In this document: one piece after another, positions 2,979-60,279 of the stretch | How positions within the stretch are numbered: position 1 is the first letter of the stretch | How the letters are laid out: each line of letters opens with the position of its first letter | Source: Candidatus Scalindua sp. SCAELEC01 | GTDB lineage: Bacteria > Planctomycetota > Brocadiia > Brocadiales > Scalinduaceae | DNA length: 64,000 bases | Assembly (NCBI GenBank): GCA_004282745.1 | Contig: SHMT01000025.1 | Coordinates: 1-64,000 of the forward strand | Direction of reading: 5' to 3' | The notes under the pieces: model-generated | What the model was told of the DNA's origin: nothing | The model's database searches: none | What the model saw: the letters and a program-made list of their open reading frames with translations, nothing else | Made by a program: the position numbers and the translations under genes

Positions 2979-3141
2979 ACCTAGATAGTGTCTGAACGAA
3001 AACCCTGTGTTTGAATGAAAAGTGCCTAGGTACAAGGCTCGTAACAATATCGTAACCGGAACGTACAATTGTACTTGAGGATTTCGAAATTGTTGCAGCA
3101 ACGTAGTAGATGGGTAGTTTTCGTTCAAACACTATCTAGGT
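2979..3141. repeat. Family-1 palindromic element, copy B (long form)
   Basis: The outermost ends ACCTAGATAGTGT and ACACTATCTAGGT are exact inverted repeats. Inside, the left side carries two tandem arms (GTCTGAACGAAAACCC then GTGTTTGAATGAAAAGT), and the core reads GTACAATTGTACTTGAGG. Orientation is opposite to copy A. With the family-3 copy after it, it accounts for most of the gene-free interval 2951-3732. Confidence 0.9.
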
Positions 3142-3732: not shown

Positions 3733-5403
3733 GTGTTTAAAGAGACGGTAATAAAAGCAGAACTTATTGAACGTATGCAATGGCTCATTCGGTTACGGTG
3801 GATTGCCATTTTGGGTCTGTTTATCACCTCGTATGTAGCCAGTAACGTTTTTTATGTTGTGACATGGGTTACTCCGCTCTATGTAATTGGGGTTCTCTTA
3901 CTGATATCTAATATCGTTTTTAAGTCCTATGCGGGAGTACTGAGAACAAAGAGTTACTCGTCAGTTCAGAGGTGTGCCGGCGTGCAAATCATGTGGGACC
4001 TATTTTCGTTGATGAGTCTCATCTATTTTGCCGGTGGGGCCTGGAACCCCTTTATCTTGTACATCTTGTTTCACGTAATCATTGCGGGAATACTCCTTGA
4101 AAAGAGATATAGTTATTTACAGGCCACTTTTGCTACATTTCTGTTAGCGTTGATGCTTGCTTTGGAATATTATTCAATAATTCCACATCAACCGCTAATG
4201 ATCTCCTCAACTATTTCATTTAACAAAGAATCCTGGCATTATGAAGTATATATTTTGGGTATGTTTTTTGCCATTTCAAGTACGATCTTTATCTCTGTCT
4301 ATTTCGTTACTTCGATCATGGATAGGTTAAAGAAGAGCAGGGGAGAGGTGTTGTTTGAGATAAAGTCTACGTTGGAGAATATGGCGGAGGGTGTAATATT
4401 TATTGATGCGGATGATAAGATAACCATGTGCAATAATGAGATTGAAAAGGCGTGGAATGTGAAAAGAGAGCAGATAATTGATATATCGATAAAAGATTGC
4501 TCTATTCCTTATGTTGGAGATGAGGTACTGAAGATCATTGAGAGTTTCAGAGGCGGAAGTTCTATATCACAGAATCAAGAGATAAAGGTGGATAGCGGTT
4601 ATCTGTATAATACCTATTCAGCAATATTTGATAACGATGATAAATACTGGGGTACTGTTCTGACGAGCCATGACATCTCTGAGAGGAAGAAATTGGAAAA
4701 CAAGTTATTCCATGCAAAGCGTTTAGCGACAATTGGTGAAATGTCTGCTAAAATTGCTCATGAAATACGGAACCCCCTAAGCTCTATCAGTCTAAATGCC
4801 GAGTTGTTGCATGATGAGATTGCAGGTTATAAAGAGAGTAAAACAGACGAGGCGGAGGAGTTGGTTCAATCAATTCTGGAGGAGGTGGAAAGGCTCACTG
4901 AAATCAGCGAGGAGTATCTTCGATCAGCTCGGTTCCCAAAATTAGAATTACATGCGACGTCTATCAATGATTTATTGGGTGAGCTAACCAAATTTCTCAA
5001 AGAGGAGATGGTCCAACGGAATATTGTATTAAAAGAGGAGTACGGCAAGGTGATGCCGGAAGTGTTTCTTGATAGGAATCAGATCAAGCAGGCATTTGTC
5101 AATTTTTTTAGAAACTCTTTTCAAGCAATGCCTGATGGGGGCAAATTGTCTATATCTACAAGATACACAGGCAAAAATATTGAAATTCTCATTACGGATT
5201 CCGGTGCAGGTATTTCAAAATCTGAGGTCCAAAAAATCTTTGATCCATTTTATAGTACTAAGGTGAATGGTACAGGTTTAGGCCTTGCTTTAACAAGAAA
5301 AACCATAGAAGAACATTGCGGTGAGATCTTTTGTAAAAGTACCTTGGGTGTTGGTACAACCATGAAAATTCTTTTTCCCATTACACCAAAGAAGAGGAGG
5401 TAG
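3733..5403 (+). CDS. Membrane PAS-domain sensor histidine kinase (NtrB/AtoS-like)
   Basis: 556 residues. About six membrane helices fill residues 20-200, followed by a PAS-like domain (about 210-320: EVLFEIKSTLENMAEGVIFIDADDK). The HisKA box is AKIAHEIRNPLSS with the phospho-accepting His near residue 343. The ATPase part shows the N box NFFRNSFQAM (about 457), G1 DSGAGIS (about 490) and G2 GTGLGLAL (about 513). The start is GTG at 3733; an ATG (MQWL) lies 15 codons downstream. It lies one base before the sigma-54 response regulator, so the two form a co-transcribed phosphorelay pair. The signal is unknown; the many-helix N-terminus suggests a membrane-associated or small hydrophobic signal. 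No target gene is obvious from adjacency. Confidence 0.92.
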   Translation: MFKETVIKAELIERMQWLIRLRWIAILGLFITSYVASNVFYVVTWVTPLYVIGVLLLISNIVFKSYAGVLRTKSYSSVQRCAGVQIMWDLFSLMSLIYFAGGAWNPFILYILFHVIIAGILLEKRYSYLQATFATFLLALMLALEYYSIIPHQPLMISSTISFNKESWHYEVYILGMFFAISSTIFISVYFVTSIMDRLKKSRGEVLFEIKSTLENMAEGVIFIDADDKITMCNNEIEKAWNVKREQIIDISIKDCSIPYVGDEVLKIIESFRGGSSISQNQEIKVDSGYLYNTYSAIFDNDDKYWGTVLTSHDISERKKLENKLFHAKRLATIGEMSAKIAHEIRNPLSSISLNAELLHDEIAGYKESKTDEAEELVQSILEEVERLTEISEEYLRSARFPKLELHATSINDLLGELTKFLKEEMVQRNIVLKEEYGKVMPEVFLDRNQIKQAFVNFFRNSFQAMPDGGKLSISTRYTGKNIEILITDSGAGISKSEVQKIFDPFYSTKVNGTGLGLALTRKTIEEHCGEIFCKSTLGVGTTMKILFPITPKKRR

Positions 5404-10772: not shown

Positions 10773-10796
10773 GTAGGGGCACGATGCCTCGTGCCC
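10773..10796. repeat. REP hairpin upstream of RAYT gene
   Basis: GGGGCACGATGCCTCGTGCCC is palindromic (GGGCACGA..TCGTGCCC type) and lies 8 bases before the RAYT start. The same sequence in the same orientation lies just after the gene and again at 21412. Confidence 0.85.
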
Positions 10797-10803
10797 ATAA
10801 AAT

Positions 10804-11376
10804 ATGGATAAAATATTGAAACGAATAAAATATAATCCTGAAATTCATCACCGTCGTTCAATCCGATTAAAAGGTTACGACTATTCGCAGGATGGATTGT
10901 ATTTTATTACCGTTTGTACCTTCAACCATGAAAGGTTGTTTGGGTATATTGATAACGGTGAAATGGTTTTAGGGAAATTTGGGGAATTTGCACACAATGA
11001 GTGGTGTCGAACTGTTGAAATGCGGAGAAATATCTTTTTACACGAATTTGTGATCATGCCGAACCACATGCACGGCATAATTGAAATTGACGATTCAAAC
11101 CGTAAGGGAACGAACCATAAGGGCACGTTGCAACGTGCCCCTACAATCGAACAATTTGGTAAACCAACGTCAAACACAGTGCCAACCATTGTTCGTGGTT
11201 TTAAATCAACGGTTACAAAACAGATAAATAATATTAGAAAAACACCAAGGCAAGTTGTTTGGCAACGCAGTTATTACGAACACGTTATACGAAATGAGGA
11301 ATCGTATAACAGGATATCAGAATATATCAGGTATAATCCGACAAAATGGTTGGAAGATAAATATTACGTGGAATAG
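10804..11376 (+). CDS. REP-associated tyrosine transposase (RAYT, Y1/HUH family)
   Basis: 190 residues. N-terminal HHRRSIRLKGYDYSQ and FFITVCTFNHERLFG-like segments, the metal-binding HUH motif MPNHMHG (about 85-91), and a C-terminal helix with the candidate catalytic Tyr in RSYYEHVIRNEES identify a single-stranded-DNA transposase of the RAYT group. Known relatives bind and cleave REP hairpins. The gene is bracketed by two identical REP hairpins, and a third palindrome of related sequence lies inside the reading frame (11121-11144), encoding KGTLQRAPT. Frame is intact, so it may be active. A decayed fragment of a second copy lies at 21480-21571. Confidence 0.92.
   Translation: MDKILKRIKYNPEIHHRRSIRLKGYDYSQDGLYFITVCTFNHERLFGYIDNGEMVLGKFGEFAHNEWCRTVEMRRNIFLHEFVIMPNHMHGIIEIDDSNRKGTNHKGTLQRAPTIEQFGKPTSNTVPTIVRGFKSTVTKQINNIRKTPRQVVWQRSYYEHVIRNEESYNRISEYIRYNPTKWLEDKYYVE
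11121..11144. repeat. REP-like palindrome inside the RAYT reading frame
   Basis: GGGCACGTTGCAACGTGCCC is a perfect 20-base palindrome, followed by CTAC. It matches hairpins at 14539 and 21491. It lies in frame, between the HUH motif and the C-terminal helix, and is translated. Confidence 0.85.
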
Positions 11377-11410
11377 ATATTTACGGTATAATCGGAATTA
11401 ACGATTTAAC

Positions 11411-11434
11411 GTAGGGGCACGATGCCTCGTGCCC
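11411..11434. repeat. REP hairpin downstream of RAYT gene
   Basis: Same sequence and orientation as the hairpin at 10773. It lies about 35 bases after the RAYT stop and 10 bases before the chosen start of the ceramidase-like gene. Confidence 0.85.
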
Positions 11435-11443
11435 AATAGTACT

Positions 11444-18953: not shown

Positions 18954-19078
18954 TCTCTGGTATCTGTGTTTGTGTAACTATTTTTTGAAATAATTACTAT
19001 AAATGTAAAATACAAATATGTCAATGGGACTTGTTCCTGCAAAAAAACGCTTGCCTCATCTTCTCTTAAGTTTATAAT

Positions 19079-19209
19079 TAGTGGTTAAACGAAAACTACC
19101 CATCTACTGCGTTACTGTAAAAAATCTGTAATTCTCAAGTACATTAGTACGTTCCGGTTACGGAATTTTTACGCGCCTTGTATCTCAGCAGCTTTCGTTC
19201 AACCACAGG
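19079..19209. repeat. Family-1 palindromic element, copy E
   Basis: Left arm TTAGTGGTTAAACGAAAACT, core GTACATTAGTACGTTCCGG, right arm CAGCTTTCGTTCAACCACA. It lies upstream of dinB. The remainder of 18954-19426 holds the DUF559-associated hairpins. Confidence 0.88.
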
Positions 19210-19322
19210 GGTTCCATTTCAAATGTAAATAAATAAGTGGATTGTAATTTTTGTTTGGATGATGTAACCGTTATTACGTAGGAAAAAGTCGCCTTCTGAA
19301 AGGAGATTTAAGCTTAATGAAA

Positions 19323-19878: not shown

Positions 19879-20460
19879 ATGAATAAATACTTACTGACAA
19901 TTGTAATCTTGTCATCTCTCCTCCATACAGCTCAGGTTTTAGAGTCAGCGGAAGAGACAACATCCGCGATAACCTTACGTACAGAGTGCAGAAACTTGTC
20001 TATTTCTCAAGTCTATTCAATGGCGAGTATCTCTATCCGTAAAAAGGACGAGTGGGGGTTTTATGGGCACAGCACAATCAGACACAGCTATGAGGCGAAG
20101 AGTGAAAACGGTGTAGATGTGGTGGTAGATCATGCCACCGGTTTGATGTGGATCCAGTCCGGTTCTGACAACTATATGAAGTGGCATGCTGCGAAGGAGT
20201 TGGTAAAGAATTTAAACAGTATGAACTATGCTGGATATAGTGACTGGCGATTGCCGACCTTGGACGAGGCGGTGTCACTTCTGGAACCGACCAAGAGTAA
20301 CGCCCTCTACATTGACCCAGTGTTTGATGGTGAACAGTGGGGGATCTGGTCGTGCGATAAACATGTTTCGGGTGAAGCGTGGAGCGTCTACTTCAGCCTT
20401 GGCAATGTACGTTGGCGCTATAAAAACCGCTACGTGCGTCCCGTCCGATCAATCAATTGA
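19879..20460 (+). CDS. Secreted DUF1566 (Lcl C-terminal domain) protein
   Basis: 193 residues. A signal peptide (MNKYLLTIVILSSLLHTAQV) precedes a DUF1566 domain: HATGLMWIQSGSDNYMKWHA (about 82-101), LNSMNYAGYSDWRLPTLDEA (about 112-131), an IDPVFDG segment and the closing NRYVRPVRS. This compact C-type-lectin-like domain is common in planctomycete and proteobacterial exported proteins; the function is unknown. It starts 14 bases after the decayed DUF559 gene and may have been carried with it, or may simply adjoin. A family-1 repeat starts 5 bases after its stop. Confidence 0.82.
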   Translation: MNKYLLTIVILSSLLHTAQVLESAEETTSAITLRTECRNLSISQVYSMASISIRKKDEWGFYGHSTIRHSYEAKSENGVDVVVDHATGLMWIQSGSDNYMKWHAAKELVKNLNSMNYAGYSDWRLPTLDEAVSLLEPTKSNALYIDPVFDGEQWGIWSCDKHVSGEAWSVYFSLGNVRWRYKNRYVRPVRSIN

Positions 20461-20465
20461 TTATT

Positions 20466-20613
20466 TAGTGTTTGAACGAAAACTACCCATCTACGGCGTT
20501 GCTGCAACAATTACGTAATCCTCACGTACTTGAGTACGCTCCGGTTACGTAATTATTTCGCGCCTTGTACCTGGGCAGTTTTGGTTCAAACACTGGGTTT
20601 TCGTTCAACCACT
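20466..20613. repeat. Family-1 palindromic element, copy F (long form)
   Basis: Left arm AGTGTTTGAACGAAAACT, core TACTTGAGTACGCTCCGG, right arm CAGTTTTGGTTCAAACACTG followed by a second arm GGTTTTCGTTCAACCACTG. It lies immediately 3' of the DUF1566 gene. Confidence 0.9.
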
Positions 20614-21411: not shown

Positions 21412-21435
21412 GTAGGGGCACGATGCCTCGTGCCC
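21412..21435. repeat. REP hairpin
   Basis: Same sequence and orientation as the two hairpins flanking the intact RAYT gene (GGGGCACGATGCCTCGTGCCC). It sits just after the NACHT remnant. Confidence 0.85.
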
Positions 21436-21479
21436 GGATCATTGGCATCACAATTTATCCGAATATAATGCAATGGGAT

Positions 21480-21571
21480 ATGATACGCAAGGGCACGTGG
21501 CAACGTGCCCCTACAACCAAACGATTTGGCAAACCAAAATCAAATACCATACCAACCATTGTTCGTGACTA
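21480..21571 (+). pseudogene. RAYT transposase fragment with internal REP palindrome
   Basis: Encodes KGTWQRAPTTKRFGKPKSNT then IPTIVRDYK, matching residues about 106-138 of the intact RAYT (KGTLQRAPTIEQFGKPTSNT, VPTIVRGFK). It includes the palindrome GGGCACGTGGCAACGTGCCC at 21491-21510. Nothing of the HUH motif remains. Its right side is cut by a family-3 element. Confidence 0.75.
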
Positions 21572-25948: not shown

Positions 25949-26121
25949 TGATTTAAGTTTCTGAAAGCAATAACTTTAAGGTATTCAACTCTATCAGCTT
26001 GTATATTTTTTGTCAAGGTGAAAAGGGTGGTACGAAGGGGCACTTAAATATTGATATTACTTTTTGCACATGCTATAGTTGATGGGCAAATGAATACTAC
26101 TCATCTAATGCGTCGCTTAAA

Positions 26122-26270
26122 TAGTGTTTGAACGAAAACTACCCATCTACTGCGTTGCTGCAATAATTTCGCAATCCTCAAGTACAATTGTACGTTCCGG
26201 TTACGAAATTATTACGCGCCTTGTACCCAGGCACTTTTCATTCAAACACAGGGTTTTCGTTCAGACACTA
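26122..26270. repeat. Family-1 palindromic element, copy G (long form)
   Basis: Runs from TAGTGTTTGAACGAAAACT to CGTTCAGACACTA, with core GTACAATTGTACGTTCCGG and two tandem right arms. It lies between the divergent S55 peptidase and tsaC genes, in the gap 25949-26408; the rest of that gap shows no gene. Confidence 0.92.
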
Positions 26271-28454: not shown

Positions 28455-28620
28455 TATACTCATCTCATAATAGCTTTCGGATAAAATCCGAGAGAAAATT
28501 GAGCAAGTAAAATTCTCAGCACCTTTTGTCCGGGGACAACGGCCCGCCTGAACGATATGTCGGGCAGGTAACCAGGATTTGGTTTCCGGTATAACCGAAA
28601 ACCAAATCGGTTTTAGTATC
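28455..28620. repeat. Family-2 element, copy 2b
   Basis: Begins TATACTCATCTCATAATAG, ends AACCAAATCGGTTTTAGTAT, with the shared interior TTTTGTCCGGGGACAACGG and the inserted CGGCCCGCCTGAACGATATG. It lies between trmB and the MATE gene, and one candidate ATG/GTG of the latter lies within it. Confidence 0.88.
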
Positions 28621-31574: not shown

Positions 31575-31694
31575 GACTTTTATTGATATAATAAACAAAA
31601 TTTATGAGCAAATCATCCAATATTTTCTCGATAAATCCTATTCATTATACGTAAAATAAAATGGGCAGCTGCTGTTAATAAGGAATCGTGTGGA

Positions 31695-31781
31695 TATACT
31701 AAAACCGATTTGGTTTCCGGCCCGCCCGGCCTGTCAGCCATTCGGACGGGTATAACCGAAAACCAAATCGGTTTTAGTATA
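31695..31781. repeat. Family-2 element, short copy 2c
   Basis: Both ends are the same type here: TATACTAAAACCGATTTGG at the left and CCAAATCGGTTTTAGTATA at the right, with a GC-rich middle (CCGGCCCGCCCGGCCTGTCA). It is thus a symmetric 87-bp inverted-repeat unit lacking the TATACTCATC end. Confidence 0.85.
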
Positions 31782-31947
31782 GAGTTGTCCGTTACTCGTA
31801 AAGACAACCAAAGGTTATGTGGAAATTCCAATTTATACTGTATTGTATTTTATGGTAATGAAATCTGTAACTTCCGGTACCGTTCCCCTCTGTTTGATGT
31901 TCTTTATTTAATCCTGTTCAAAGATTGAGTGGGGAGTAAAATGTAAG

Positions 31948-33245
31948 ATGAGTCATTTTGTGAACGATCTGAATGCGTGTGTTACCGAGGCGCTTGAAGG
32001 AGTGGCACTCAGCTCCTTTGGGAATTTAGTTTTAGTGCGTGGGAGGAATGTTATTCTCCTTAATCCAGAAAAGGGGAGGAATCGAAGTAAAGTAGTAATT
32101 GTGTGTGGGGGAGGGAGTGGTCATGAACCGGCACACTCTTCCTTCGTTAACCACGAAATATTATCAGCTGCTATATGTGGGGACGTGTTTGCCTCTCCAA
32201 GTGTCGGTGCGATTGTAGATGGGGTTCGTTCTCTTGCTGGTAAAAGCGGAGACCTGCAGAAAGATACTGGTCAGGCGAGTACGCAGACAGGTGTCCTCGT
32301 AATTATTAAAAATTACACGGGTGATAAGATTAATTTTGGTATGGCCTGTGAAATACTATCCTCTGAAGGTCTCTTATTGAGGAAATTAATTGTTGCTGAT
32401 GATGTCTCTTTGTCTCAGGTGAGCGATAGAAGGGGTGTCGCCGGTACCATTTTAGTATATAAAATAGCAGGTGCTTTTGCTCTCCAACAGCAAAATGGTA
32501 ATGACAATATGCAACGACAACTAGACGAGGTATACGAAATGGCAAAGAAGGTGAGTGATAACATCCATTCAATAAATAGCTTAGACAGGGAGTGCGGAGA
32601 TGGTGATGCCGGTGATACATTTGCTACTGCTTGTAACGCTCTATTGAGTAACATACGATACTTTAGTGTCTGTAATGTAAATGTATCTTTTAGGAGAATT
32701 GCCAAATGTTTAACCGATGCAGTGGGGGGTACGAGTGGACCACTGTATGCCGTTTTTTTTATCCGTGCTGCCACCGCTTTCTCTTCTCAAACAGATATTA
32801 AAGACAGGAAAGAGTGGAAATCAGCTAACAACTGGAAAGAGGCAATGTATAAAGGGATTTTGGGAATTGAAGAGCTAGGTGGGTGTGCTAAAGGTGATAA
32901 GACGATGTTCGCCCCGCCTGCGGCGGTGCGAATGCGGAGTTGAGGAGCAACGGCCTGGCCGCCGCAGGCGAGGCGAACAAGTCGTTTGAGTCAGACAACA
33001 TTTCAATGTTGCTCCTCAACTCCGCATTAGATGCCCTCTATCCTGTGTATGATGTCATAAAGAACAGGGGAGTCGAAAGGGATAGTGGGATGGAAGCTTT
33101 TGCACAAGCGGTAAAGGATGGAACTGAACAGACGCGTAATTTAGAAGCCAAGGCCGGACGAGCTCGGTATGTTCAAGGGAGAGGAGTGGGGAAAGTGGAT
33201 CCCGGTGCCTTTGCTGTTTATCTGTTGCTAAAAGCGCTCTTGTGA
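31948..33245 (+). pseudogene. ATP-dependent dihydroxyacetone kinase, deleted and interrupted
   Basis: The first ~195 residues are the DhaK domain (VCGGGSGHEPAHSSFV about 51-66; GDVFASPS about 80-87; KNYTGDKINFG about 119-129). After KKVSDNIHSI the frame jumps straight into the DhaL ATP-binding domain (LDRECGDGDAGDTFA), so about 130 residues including the substrate-binding His of DhaK are missing. DhaL then runs to GGCAKGDKTM, where a 119-bp palindromic insertion (32910-33028) shifts the frame; the DhaL sequence resumes at LDALYPVYDV and reaches KVDPGAFAVYLLLKALL, stop at 33243-33245. Both lesions abolish enzyme function. Confidence 0.85.
32908..33028. repeat. Interleaved inverted-repeat insertion in the kinase gene
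   Basis: Two inverted repeats are interlocked in the order a-b-a'-b'. Pair a: 32907-32927 with 32958-32978 (19 of 21 match; core CGCCTGCGGCGG). Pair b: 32931-32951 with 33008-33028 (21 of 21; GCGGAGTTGAGGAGCAAC). It is flanked by TT at both sides (32908-32909 and 33027-33028), a possible two-base target duplication, and is more GC-rich than its host gene. Confidence 0.85.
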
Positions 33246-35327: not shown

Positions 35328-35551
35328 TATACTCATCTCATAATGGTTTTCGGATAAAATCCGAGATCAATTGAGCGAGTAAAGTCCTCGGCGCCTTTTG
35401 TCCGGGGATACCTTCACCAAGATTTGGTTTCCGGCCCGCCCGGCCTGTCAGCCGTTCGCCAGCCCCCGTCCGAATGGCTGACAGGCCGGGCGGGCGACGC
35501 TCTTTCTGGCGGAGACGGGTAAAACCGAAAATCAAATCGGTTTTAGTATAT
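35328..35551. repeat. Family-2 element, longest copy 2d
   Basis: Starts TATACTCATCTCATAATGG, ends AATCGGTTTTAGTATA, and includes TTTTGTCCGGGGATACCTTC plus an inner GC-rich palindrome (GCCCGCCCGGCCTGTCAGCC paired with GGCTGACAGGCCGGGCGGGC). It fills most of the gap 35244-35654. Confidence 0.9.
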
Positions 35552-40750: not shown

Positions 40751-40939
40751 TGATATGTCAACTATTGTTTATGTTTAGAAACCATTATTTCTTCGAATAT
40801 CGTAGCAATGATGACTGATTTTTCAATAAAATAGTTAAACAATTTTTGCAGGCATTAAACATCGTATGATTGAAATACAATATCCCACAGACGCATTTTC
40901 AAGCAAAAATGCGTCAATTGTTCATGTAAAGTAAACGTA

Positions 40940-41104
40940 TATACTAAAACCGATTTGGTTTTAGATTTTTCCCGTCCGAACGGCTGACAGGCCGGGCGGG
41001 CTGAAAACCAAAGCTTGGTGAAGGTATCCCCGGACAAAAGCCGAGGACTTTACTCGCTCAATTGATCTCGGATTTTATCCGAAAACCATTATGAGATGAG
41101 TATA
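40940..41104. repeat. Family-2 element, copy 2e
   Basis: TATACTAAAACCGATTTGG at the left, ATTATGAGATGAGTATA at the right, with interior GACTTTACTCGCTCAATTG and the GC-rich CGGCTGACAGGCCGGGCGGG. Orientation opposite to copy 2d. It lies about 100 bp upstream of where the truncated hsdM begins. Confidence 0.9.
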
Positions 41105-41202
41105 CTCGAAAGAGTAAGGCTCTATTATTGATGAATCTGGTAATGGAGAGCATCTCGCTTCACTCATCGCTCACCCAATTTACAATGTAAAGATCATGAT
41201 AA

Positions 41203-43455: not shown

Positions 43456-43507
43456 GCAATAGCATATGTCAATGGATGGTCGAATCGTAATTTGGTGCAA
43501 ATGGTGA

Positions 43508-43615
43508 TATACTAAAACCGATTTGGTGAAGGTATCTCCGGACAAAAGGCGTCGAGGACTTTACTCGCTCAATTTTATCTCGAATTTTATCCGAAAACCA
43601 TTATGAGATGAGTTT
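43508..43615. repeat. Family-2 element, copy 2f
   Basis: TATACTAAAACCGATTTGG at the left and ATTATGAGATGAGTTTAT at the right, with CTCCGGACAAAAGGCG inside. It is 108 bp and lacks the GC-rich centre. It lies between hsdS and the darT leader. Confidence 0.9.
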
Positions 43616-43696
43616 ATTTTGTGATTGTTTTTCGGTTTTCAGATTGCACTAGAGTTGTTTTTACCTATACTATTATAAACAAATGAGCAATATAGA

Positions 43697-48500: not shown

Positions 48501-48859
48501 TGGTGCCTGGCGAAGGGTTGGGTACTGCAAAAGCCAGAGATAAGAAGGAAGAGCTAATATCACAGATCATCAGCAGATTGAATGAGCTGTTTATCACCGA
48601 TCAACTTACCGACAGTGATTTGGTGAACTATGCCTATGCTATCAGAGATAAAGTGAGAGAAAACGGATTGGTCATGAAGCAGATTACAAATAATACCCCC
48701 GAACAGGCAATGTTGGGTGACTTCCCAAAAGCCGTAGACAACGCAGTGATGGATAGCAGCGAGGCGCATCAAAATTAGATGATGCAACTATTGTCTGATC
48801 CTTCAAAAGCCGCAGGTTTTGCCAGGGTGGTGTTTGACCTGTTGAAGATGGCAAGTTAA
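45580..48859 (+). pseudogene. hsdR: Type I restriction endonuclease R subunit, disrupted
   Basis: The 889 residues up to 48249 show the HsdR order: nuclease domain with IDLVLFVNGLPIATLELKSE (about 187-206, PD-(D/E)xK), helicase Walker A IQHSAGSGKSNS (about 349-360), DEAH box IIADEAHSSQTG (about 466-477), and motif VI region VECVQTLSRLNRTYPGKTDS. Near 48235 an extra T shifts the frame; the C-terminal domain continues in the +1 frame (EKDNLEIFKKDLGTFVRFYE), meets TAA at 48437-48439 in place of a Tyr-like codon, goes on (RLSIIRQQDLSIREDTAEYR), meets TAG at 48776-48778 and ends at 48859. The C-terminal helical domain that docks on HsdM is therefore lost. The main ORF could still make a truncated helicase-nuclease. 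Confidence 0.9.
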
Positions 48860-48860
48860 A

Positions 48861-48938
48861 TAGTGTTTGAACGAAAACTACCCGTCTACTGCGTTGCTGT
48901 AATAATTCCGTAATCATCAAATACATTAGTACGTTCAG
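48861..48938. repeat. Family-1 element, left half only (copy J)
   Basis: TAGTGTTTGAACGAAAACT, CTACTGCGTTGCTGTAATAA and the core GTACATTAGTACGTTCAGG are present, then it breaks off at TTGGGTATTTATGG, where the next gene starts. It begins 1-2 bases after the hsdR stop. Confidence 0.85.
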
Positions 48939-48949
48939 GTTGGGTATTT

Positions 48950-50488
48950 ATGGAAAACAGAAAATATACATTGGAAGAGATACAGAACTGTATCATAACC
49001 CTTGAAGCTTTGGTTGGGGATAGTGAACAGCTTGTCTGCTTAAGCAAGCAGGAGAAGAAGAGACTTTTTACGGCGGCGGGGAAGATTGCGAGGCCGTCGA
49101 CGGAAGAGAGGAAGAAGCGTCGTAAGGACGAAAGAGTTGCGAAGAAGCAGGGGGTAAAGAGAGCGGACCGAATTGCACGGCGCAATACAGGCATTCGAGA
49201 TGCTCGGTTAAAAAAGGTGTTCAGCGCACCGAAAGAGCTTCCGATGGACAGGGTTGAATCTGAGCTTAGGGCAGAAGAGTTGAGTTCCGAACGCAATTGT
49301 TATGTTTGTAAGGCAGAATTTACGACGCTCCACCATTTTTATGATTCGATGTGTAAATCGTGTGGTGACCTGAATTATAGAAAACGATTTCAAACAGCAT
49401 CGCTTCACGGAAAAGTGGCATTGATTACGGGTTCGCGGCTTAAGATCGGTTACCATGCGACATTGATGCTGCTTCGAGCCGGTGCCACGGTAATTGCCAC
49501 CACTCGTTTCCCGGTTGATTCGGCAGAACGATATGCAAAAGAGGAAGATTTTGCTCTCTGGAAAGAGCGACTGCATATTCATGGGCTTGATTTGCGCCAC
49601 ACGCCAAGTGTGGAAATTTTTGCCAGCTACATCGAACAGAGCTATGACCGCCTTGATATACTCATCAATAATGCGGCGCAGACAGTTCGACGCCCTCCGG
49701 GATTTTATGCCCATTTAATTGAAAATGAGATAAAGCCATTACATACCTTATCGGAAGGTGTCCGGATTCTTTTAGGTAACCATGAAGACTGCAAAAATCA
49801 GTTGTCAGCGCTTTGCCAAAACGGACGAGAACAGAGTTCCTCTCTTCCGGTTACCTGGCACGGGGAAGGTCCTGGAATTGGTCTGCGTGCCTCAGCAAAA
49901 CTTTCACAAATTCCCTATAATTTTGACAACTCTCTCGTCGCTGCGGAGCTGTTTCCAAAGGGTGAACTTGATGCGGATCTCCAGCAGGTTGATTTGCGAA
50001 AGACAAATAGTTGGCGTCTGAAGCTTGGTGACATCGAAACCCCGGAAATGCTGGAGGTACAATTAGTAAATGCCGTCGCCCCATTTGTATTGTGCAATCG
50101 TTTGGCGAACCTGATGAAACGTGACTGTACCGGGGAGAAACATATTGTGAACGTAACGGCGGTGGAAGGCAAGTTTTACCGATTTAAAAAGTCAGATCGT
50201 CATCCCCATACGAATATGGCTAAGGCGGCCTTAAATATGCTGACCCACACCTCGGCAGGCGATTTGGAAAAGTATGGTATTTTTATGAATGCGGTCGATA
50301 CAGGGTGGGTAACCGATGAAGACCCGGTAGAGCTTTCCCAATTCAAACAAAGTGTGCATGATTTTCAACCGCCATTGGATATCGTGGATGGAGCGGCAAG
50401 AGTCTGTGATCCGTTCTTTGATGGCATTCTTACCGGTAAGCATTGGGTAGGGAAATTCCTCAAGGACTACTTCCCTATCGACTGGTAA
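48950..50488 (+). CDS. Zinc-ribbon-SDR fusion oxidoreductase
   Basis: 512 residues. Residues 1-115 are a helical, highly basic region ([30 protein letters not shown]), then a zinc ribbon [20 protein letters not shown] with KSC after it (about 117-140). A short-chain dehydrogenase domain follows: [20 protein letters not shown] (about 158-177; a TGxxxKIGY cofactor loop), [19 protein letters not shown] (about 231-249), and near the C-terminus the helix [20 protein letters not shown]. In that helix the usual catalytic Tyr of YxxxK is Thr (TNMAK), and a Ser upstream is not plain. The SDR chemistry is therefore doubtful; binding or a different mechanism is possible. A family with this layout exists in bacteria and plants, function unknown to me. 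Confidence 0.82.
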
Positions 50489-50954: not shown

Positions 50955-51103
50955 TAGTTGTTAAACGAAAACCCAGTGGTTGAACGAAAACTGCCCAGGT
51001 ACAAGGCGCGTAATAATTTCGTAACCGGAACGTACAATTGTACTTGAGGATTGCGAAATTATTGCAGCAACGCAGTAGATGGGTAGTTTTCGTTCAAACA
51101 CTA
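50955..51103. repeat. Family-1 palindromic element, copy K (long form)
   Basis: TTAGTTGTTAAACGAAAACC then AGTGGTTGAACGAAAACTG at the left, core GTACAATTGTACTTGAGG, right arm AGTTTTCGTTCAAACACTA. Its last bases CTA are the reverse-strand TAG stop of the lipoprotein gene. Confidence 0.92.
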
Positions 51104-60055: not shown

Positions 60056-60133
60056 AACACTATCTTTCCACTGGATTTTCGTTCACGCACTACGTGATGG
60101 TTTGTCACTTTTCGGTATCTTGTTTACGGTTTA

Positions 60134-60245
60134 TATACTAAAACCGATTTGGTTTTCGGCGTTATCGGAAACCAAATCTTGGTTGCAGTTATACTCGCTC
60201 AATTTTATTTCGGATTTTATCCGAAAACCATTATGAGATGAGTAT
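60134..60245. repeat. Family-2 element, copy 2g
   Basis: TATACTAAAACCGATTTGG to ATTATGAGATGAGTATA, 112 bp, with ACTCGCTCAATTTTATTTCG inside; the GC-rich centre is replaced by GGCGTTATCGGAAACC. It lies between aroB and dprA. Confidence 0.92.
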
Positions 60246-60279
60246 ATTCTGCGGAATGAGTGTGTCCGTATATTCCCCA

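Follow-up and report, generated by a model that had tools for sequence, protein, structure and literature searches.

The 64,000-nt stretch of DNA analysed here (the window) carries a dhaK-L (Dak1-Dak2) gene that is interrupted by about 119 bases, which raises the question of what this insert is and how it came to lie inside a coding region. The original prediction placed it exactly between TM and LD of DhaL, and the ends proved to be exact: the Pfam Dak2 profile is matched from 2 to 100 before the insert and from 100 to 172 (of 174) after it, the left flank ends in ...ACG ATG (ATG at 32905-32907) and the right flank begins with TTA GAT GCC (Table 1). Comparison with an uninterrupted DhaL, as had been proposed, fixed the boundary. 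The intact dhaK-L of the relative G014 reads ACT CTA TTA GAT GGA (TLLDGLYP) at this place, and its empty site CTA^TTAGATGG corresponds to ATG^TTAGATGCC in the window. The insertion therefore took nothing from the gene and added nothing besides itself, TT being the sole shared bases. The insert runs from TTCGCC to CTCCGCA and is 119 bp long, or 121 bp if the TT is taken as duplicated, the two readings being indistinguishable. Independently of the insert, the window gene is without about 196 codons in frame (the end of Dak1 and the start of Dak2); the intact homologues in G014 and G005 encode 592-594 amino acids. The gene was probably damaged already before the insertion.

Table 1. Features of the interrupted dhaK-L gene and of its insert (window positions).
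Feature	Position	Strand	Evidence or remark
dhaK-L (Dak1-Dak2), 5' part before the insert	31948..32907	+	Pfam Dak1 2-174/313, Dak2 2-100/174
Insert, read as an ORF-less integron cassette	32908..33026	+	100% copy on G000:C28, 84% copy on C52, homologues in relatives, empty site in G014
Left end TTCGCCCCGCCTGCGGCGGTGCGAA, itself a hairpin	32908..32932	+	Contains repeat a; fold of joined ends
Repeat a	32908-32926	+	Would be the R' side of attC after circle closure
Repeat b	32932..32951	+	Inverse of b'; 20/20 complementary
45-bp segment missing from the simple form in G001:C26	32933..32977	+	G001 simple form against C52 compound form
Repeat a', ending in R''-like box GGCGAAC (32972-32978)	32959..32978	+	Pairs with a
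L''-like box AAGTCGTTTGAG	32979..32990	+	Conserved among the copies; also present in attC-like sites of related genomes
Repeat b' with L'-like box CTCAACTCC	33008..33027	+	Ends in the first T of the target TT
3' part of dhaL, from TTA GAT GCC (LDALYP) onwards	33027..33245	+	Pfam Dak2 100-172/174

The 119 bp carry no ORF. Their GC content is, as had been noted, above that of the surroundings (60% against 42.5% for the window), and the two inverted repeats indeed stand in the order a-b-a'-b': a pairs with a' (32959-32977) at 18 of 19 positions, and b pairs with b' at all 20.

There is no second copy in the window, as the original prediction stated, and the proposed search of the genome and its relatives for the 119-base unit found copies in both. 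In the source genome (G000, 4.59 Mb), where the counts rest on a search of the genome sequence, three copies are present including the one in dhaL: contig C28 carries one that is 100% identical, and C52 one that matches at 84%. Full-length homologues of 122-126 bp occur in four other Scalinduaceae genomes (G004, G006, G007, and G012), and partial or related pieces in further members of the family. The b repeat also occurs in records named Candidatus Scalindua rubra, Brocadiaceae bacterium S225, and Planctomycetes (a MAG), which identifies the group as the anammox family Scalinduaceae. The exact b-repeat pattern was not found in viral contigs, and the plasmid collection searched gave no match. 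Records of Marinobacter and Lachnospiraceae also matched the b pattern; these hits were rejected as chance, the rest of the element being absent. The caveat that a lone insertion shared by all relatives would simply be an old local rearrangement did not apply, as second copies exist and dhaK-L is intact in G014 and G005.

Looking at other insertions to define the ends and the target, a further suggestion of the original prediction, was the most informative step, as the copies begin at integron recombination points, namely at attI or attI-like sites and at attC ends in arrays near intI, and otherwise at lone G^TT or A^TT sites. The left junction is G^TT in 12 of the 14 copies and A^TT in two; the right junction is mostly A^TT rather than the canonical G^TT, with G^TT in G001. 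Several copies lie in arrays directly 3' of another attC: two in G012:C12, with intI in the same stretch about 6-7 kb away, one in G004:C58, adjoining intI, and the one in G000:C28, where the preceding attC is of a type present in the genome's own C22 array. This array adjoins the gene for an intact IntI on C22 (443 aa, 378 bits to TIGR02249 with a cut-off of 265), to which the nearest solved structure is that of the Vibrio cholerae integrase (2a3v, E 3e-75). The attI region on C22 and G001:C26 share 93% identity over a stretch of 129 bp, and this similarity breaks off exactly at the start of the element, TTG^TTC. A 26-base attI motif was then scanned with up to 5 changes over all fetched loci, which had been chosen for integron features and are not a random survey, the exact junction being unselected. 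The motif was found beside intI or its remnant, or with the element directly after it at TTG^TTC (G001, G007, G011, and G006); the one exception is a weaker match on a G011 contig that also holds intI. The flanks examined around the copies at attI-like sites, mostly short, contained no intact intI.

Because copies sit at attI sites and at attC ends, the element can be read as an integron cassette without a gene; one ORF per cassette is typical and not required. We put the probability at roughly 0.86 that the insert is an ORF-less cassette placed by IntI at an off-integron, attG-like site (ATG^TTAGATG) of a dhaK-L gene that was truncated beforehand, and it appears to consist essentially of its own attC recombination site. 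The TT at both ends, a possible duplication in the original prediction, is accounted for by the core G^TT of the integrase and not by duplication through a transposase. The small element of that prediction is an apparently mobile insertion with exact ends and other copies; with copies at attI and attC, it is no new kind of element.

The source genome has further integron features. A decayed second integron integrase with its own attI is located on C23 (L080, 7527-8581). On C28, a second cassette-like element follows an attI-like sequence (L005, about 4800-5000); it has the inverted pair TGCCCAGGATGAGGAGCGC / GCGCTCCTCATCCTGGGCA, the same layout as the dhaL insert, and other letters. The first coding cassette after attI on C22 (L071, 4690-4720) starts with the hairpin TTGGCCGCCAGAAAATGGCGGCCAA, after which comes an inverted L'-like stretch. 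Left ends of the compound type may thus be frequent in this family.

The same sites could also have been left by ordinary gene cassettes, the element being the attC that remains after loss of the gene and the dhaL copy a decayed cassette and no self-moving ORF-less one. Similar attC-like sites without b and a' are in fact found near small genes in relatives (G004:C113, G010:C86, and G009:C42). On the other hand, full-length copies that hardly vary in length (about 119-122 bp) recur in five genomes with sharp integrase-core ends on both sides, and the copies in dhaL and on C28 are 100% identical; therefore, the element appears to have moved at its present size, and we regard gene loss as an improbable origin.

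Somewhat less probable still is a MITE or another IS-derived, non-autonomous element that is moved by a DDE or HUH transposase and has nothing to do with integrons. A short, palindromic sequence with several copies and TT at both ends would suit such an element, and the source genome is rich in other interspersed repeats; however, there are only three copies in the genome, the ends TTCGCC... and ...CTCCGCA are not terminal inverted repeats, and the junctions of many copies coincide with attI and attC cores. A MITE was rejected on account of these ends, and the exact attI and attC junctions strongly disfavour it. Compared with dispersed REP palindromes linked to a RAYT (Y1) gene, the copy number is low (three in the genome), and the junctions are integrase cores.

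Not all copies lie in integrons. Those in dhaL, on C52, and on G012:C5 appear to be off-integron. The C52 copy is flanked by a small gene on one side and a contractile-tail sheath-like gene on the other, and the G006 counterpart is without a copy; the intergenic flanks of the G012:C5 and C52 copies are too diverged to place the empty site to the base. The dhaL copy, as is characteristic of an attG insertion, is precise, lies outside an integron, and has an uninterrupted relative in G014.

To return to the integron reading, the interlocked repeats also find an explanation in it. In any integrated, linear cassette, the R' side of attC stands at the left extremity; this, together with a backward 45-bp second end at the R'' core, would give rise to the order a-b-a'-b'. 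When the ends of the element are joined, the bottom strand folds into a 94-nt attC-like hairpin of -34 kcal/mol with the order R''-L''-L'-R' and the composition a'-AAGTCGTTTGAG...CTCAACTCCGCA-a, the boxes being assigned by eye and the attC judged by eye and by MFE folding. The circle junction b'-a-b, in turn, forms a palindrome of 63 nt (near-perfect, about -39 kcal/mol), which would result from the backward second cassette end and excludes the attC fold. Once the element is integrated, pairing between the target TTAGAT and GGCGAAC is poor.

Taken together with the junctions, these folds suggest a possible route. IntI would excise the cassette from an integron as a 119-nt circle, whose closure would join b' to a so that a'-spacer-b'-a could fold as the bottom-strand attC hairpin. 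The circle would then be recombined by IntI into a G^TT, usually that of attI or of the R' box of another attC; in the case of dhaL, it would have met a chance genomic attG-like site, ATG^TTAGATG, and split the gene without loss of a base. The sequences themselves show the precise insertion, the identical copy, junctions at attI and attC, an intact intI, and the simpler form in relatives; from these we infer the excision as a circle, the role of IntI, and the order of events, and the mobility of the element likewise.

The origin of the backward end can be approached through the relatives, as a simple form of 69-75 bp without b and a' is present in G004:C6 and G001:C26. The C52 copy and the G001 copy differ essentially by one segment of 45-46 bp between GCGAA and CAAGG, with boundaries set by eye since automatic alignment displaced the left end. 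In reverse, the C52 segment starts with TTCGCC and ends with CTCCACA, and its position is that of the opposite-strand G^TT in the R'' box; the corresponding segment of the dhaL insert in reverse starts with TTCGCC and ends with CTCCGCA. In each case, these are the cassette's own ends. Most simply, a cassette end that had been shortened would have entered R'' backwards, the reverse direction, namely loss of the segment, being possible as well. In G004:C6 (L023, 640-800), the 69-bp simple form is itself inserted backwards, inside attI at A^TT. As both forms are present in relatives, the way in which the repeats became interlocked can be tested. A diverged element that is likewise interlocked, with CGAACGACTTG / CAAGTCATTCG as its inverted pair, lies on G032:C41 (L017), from a different family within the order, about 2.3 kb from an intI fragment.

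The pairing could instead have been kept for an RNA function, the element being a structured RNA (a pseudoknot or switch) or a regulatory element. The repeats a/a' and b/b' are complementary across 11 copies, and six pairs are changed on both sides compared with 1.5 in shuffles. This covariation is modest and could also stem from gene conversion, and some of the pairs are broken in most copies. Moreover, an Rfam search of the window gave no match, the copies occur in either orientation and have unrelated surroundings, one of them being inside a gene, and attC folding of the DNA together with palindrome formation accounts for the pairing. An RNA role is thus very unlikely. Of the pseudoknot or alternate hairpins seen in the original prediction, the interlocked pairing remains, and it is more simply described as an attC plus an inverted second cassette end, with no need for an RNA. 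Template switching, a local replication error that can generate interlocked inverted repeats, was hardly worth considering as the source of the palindromes in dhaL, as the identical 119 bp on another contig and the homologues in other species refute a local rearrangement.

Beyond the integron reading as such, it is tempting to speculate that Scalinduaceae harbour a lineage of attC-only cassettes that spreads selfishly by means of IntI, and that the two exclusive folds of the circle, due to the inverted second attC end, could control whether the cassette inserts and in which direction, among other places in reverse into attI and into genes away from integrons. We hold this idea only tentatively and think it rather doubtful.

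Non-coding cassettes without an ORF are known in the chromosomal integrons of Vibrio, where they were suggested to be possibly selfish (PMC1382264). The dhaL element resembles them in having no ORF, in being bounded by integrase cores, and in having homologous copies within one bacterial family, but it differs in consisting essentially of attC only (119 bp), in its anammox Planctomycetes hosts, in its interlocked repeats, and in that several copies lie outside integrons. Off-target insertion of cassettes at G^TT outside integrons is established (PMC10127599), with insertion at secondary sites attributed there to Recchia & Hall 1995 and Francia 1993; attG sites are those of Loot et al. 2024, as cited in PMC11023631 and PMC12901181 and described in the latter. 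The insertion in dhaL is likewise a precise one of a cassette at G^TT outside an integron, whereas it differs from the known attG insertions in being natural, in concerning a chromosomal gene of an anammox lineage and an ORF-less cassette, and in that the site is read from the sequence. The element is also comparable to a miniature transposable element, being tiny, cargo-free, and presumably mobilised in trans, although it is without terminal inverted repeats, any target duplication is limited to the TT core, and its junctions are integrase cores.

The machinery is therefore known, and the interlocked, cargo-free cassette that seems to have spread within Scalinduaceae, both inside integrons and elsewhere, would be a variant of which we found no description; our literature search found no paper on integron cassettes in anammox bacteria. 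If the integron reading is true, the locus would represent a natural, sequence-resolved exit of a cassette from its array that split a chromosomal gene in anammox bacteria, and it suggests that an integron recombination site by itself can act as a miniature transposable element.

Other repeats are also present in the window. A family of interspersed repeats of about 150 bp, 62-94% alike and in both orientations, is found at 679-832, 2986-3134, 19073-19226, 20460-20613, 26116-26269, 48855-49008, and 50955-51103, and also on contigs C22 and C28; it looks like a separate miniature element. A second, composite family (TATACTCATCTCATAATGG... and AACCGATTTGGTTTTAGTAT), again in both orientations, is located at 28455-28620, 31694-31795, 35328-35550, 40926-41109, 43507-43621, and 60133-60251. 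Finally, short near-palindromic repeats, GTAGGGGCACGATGCCTCGTGCCC, occur at 10773-11435, 14537, 21412-21511, and 50918.
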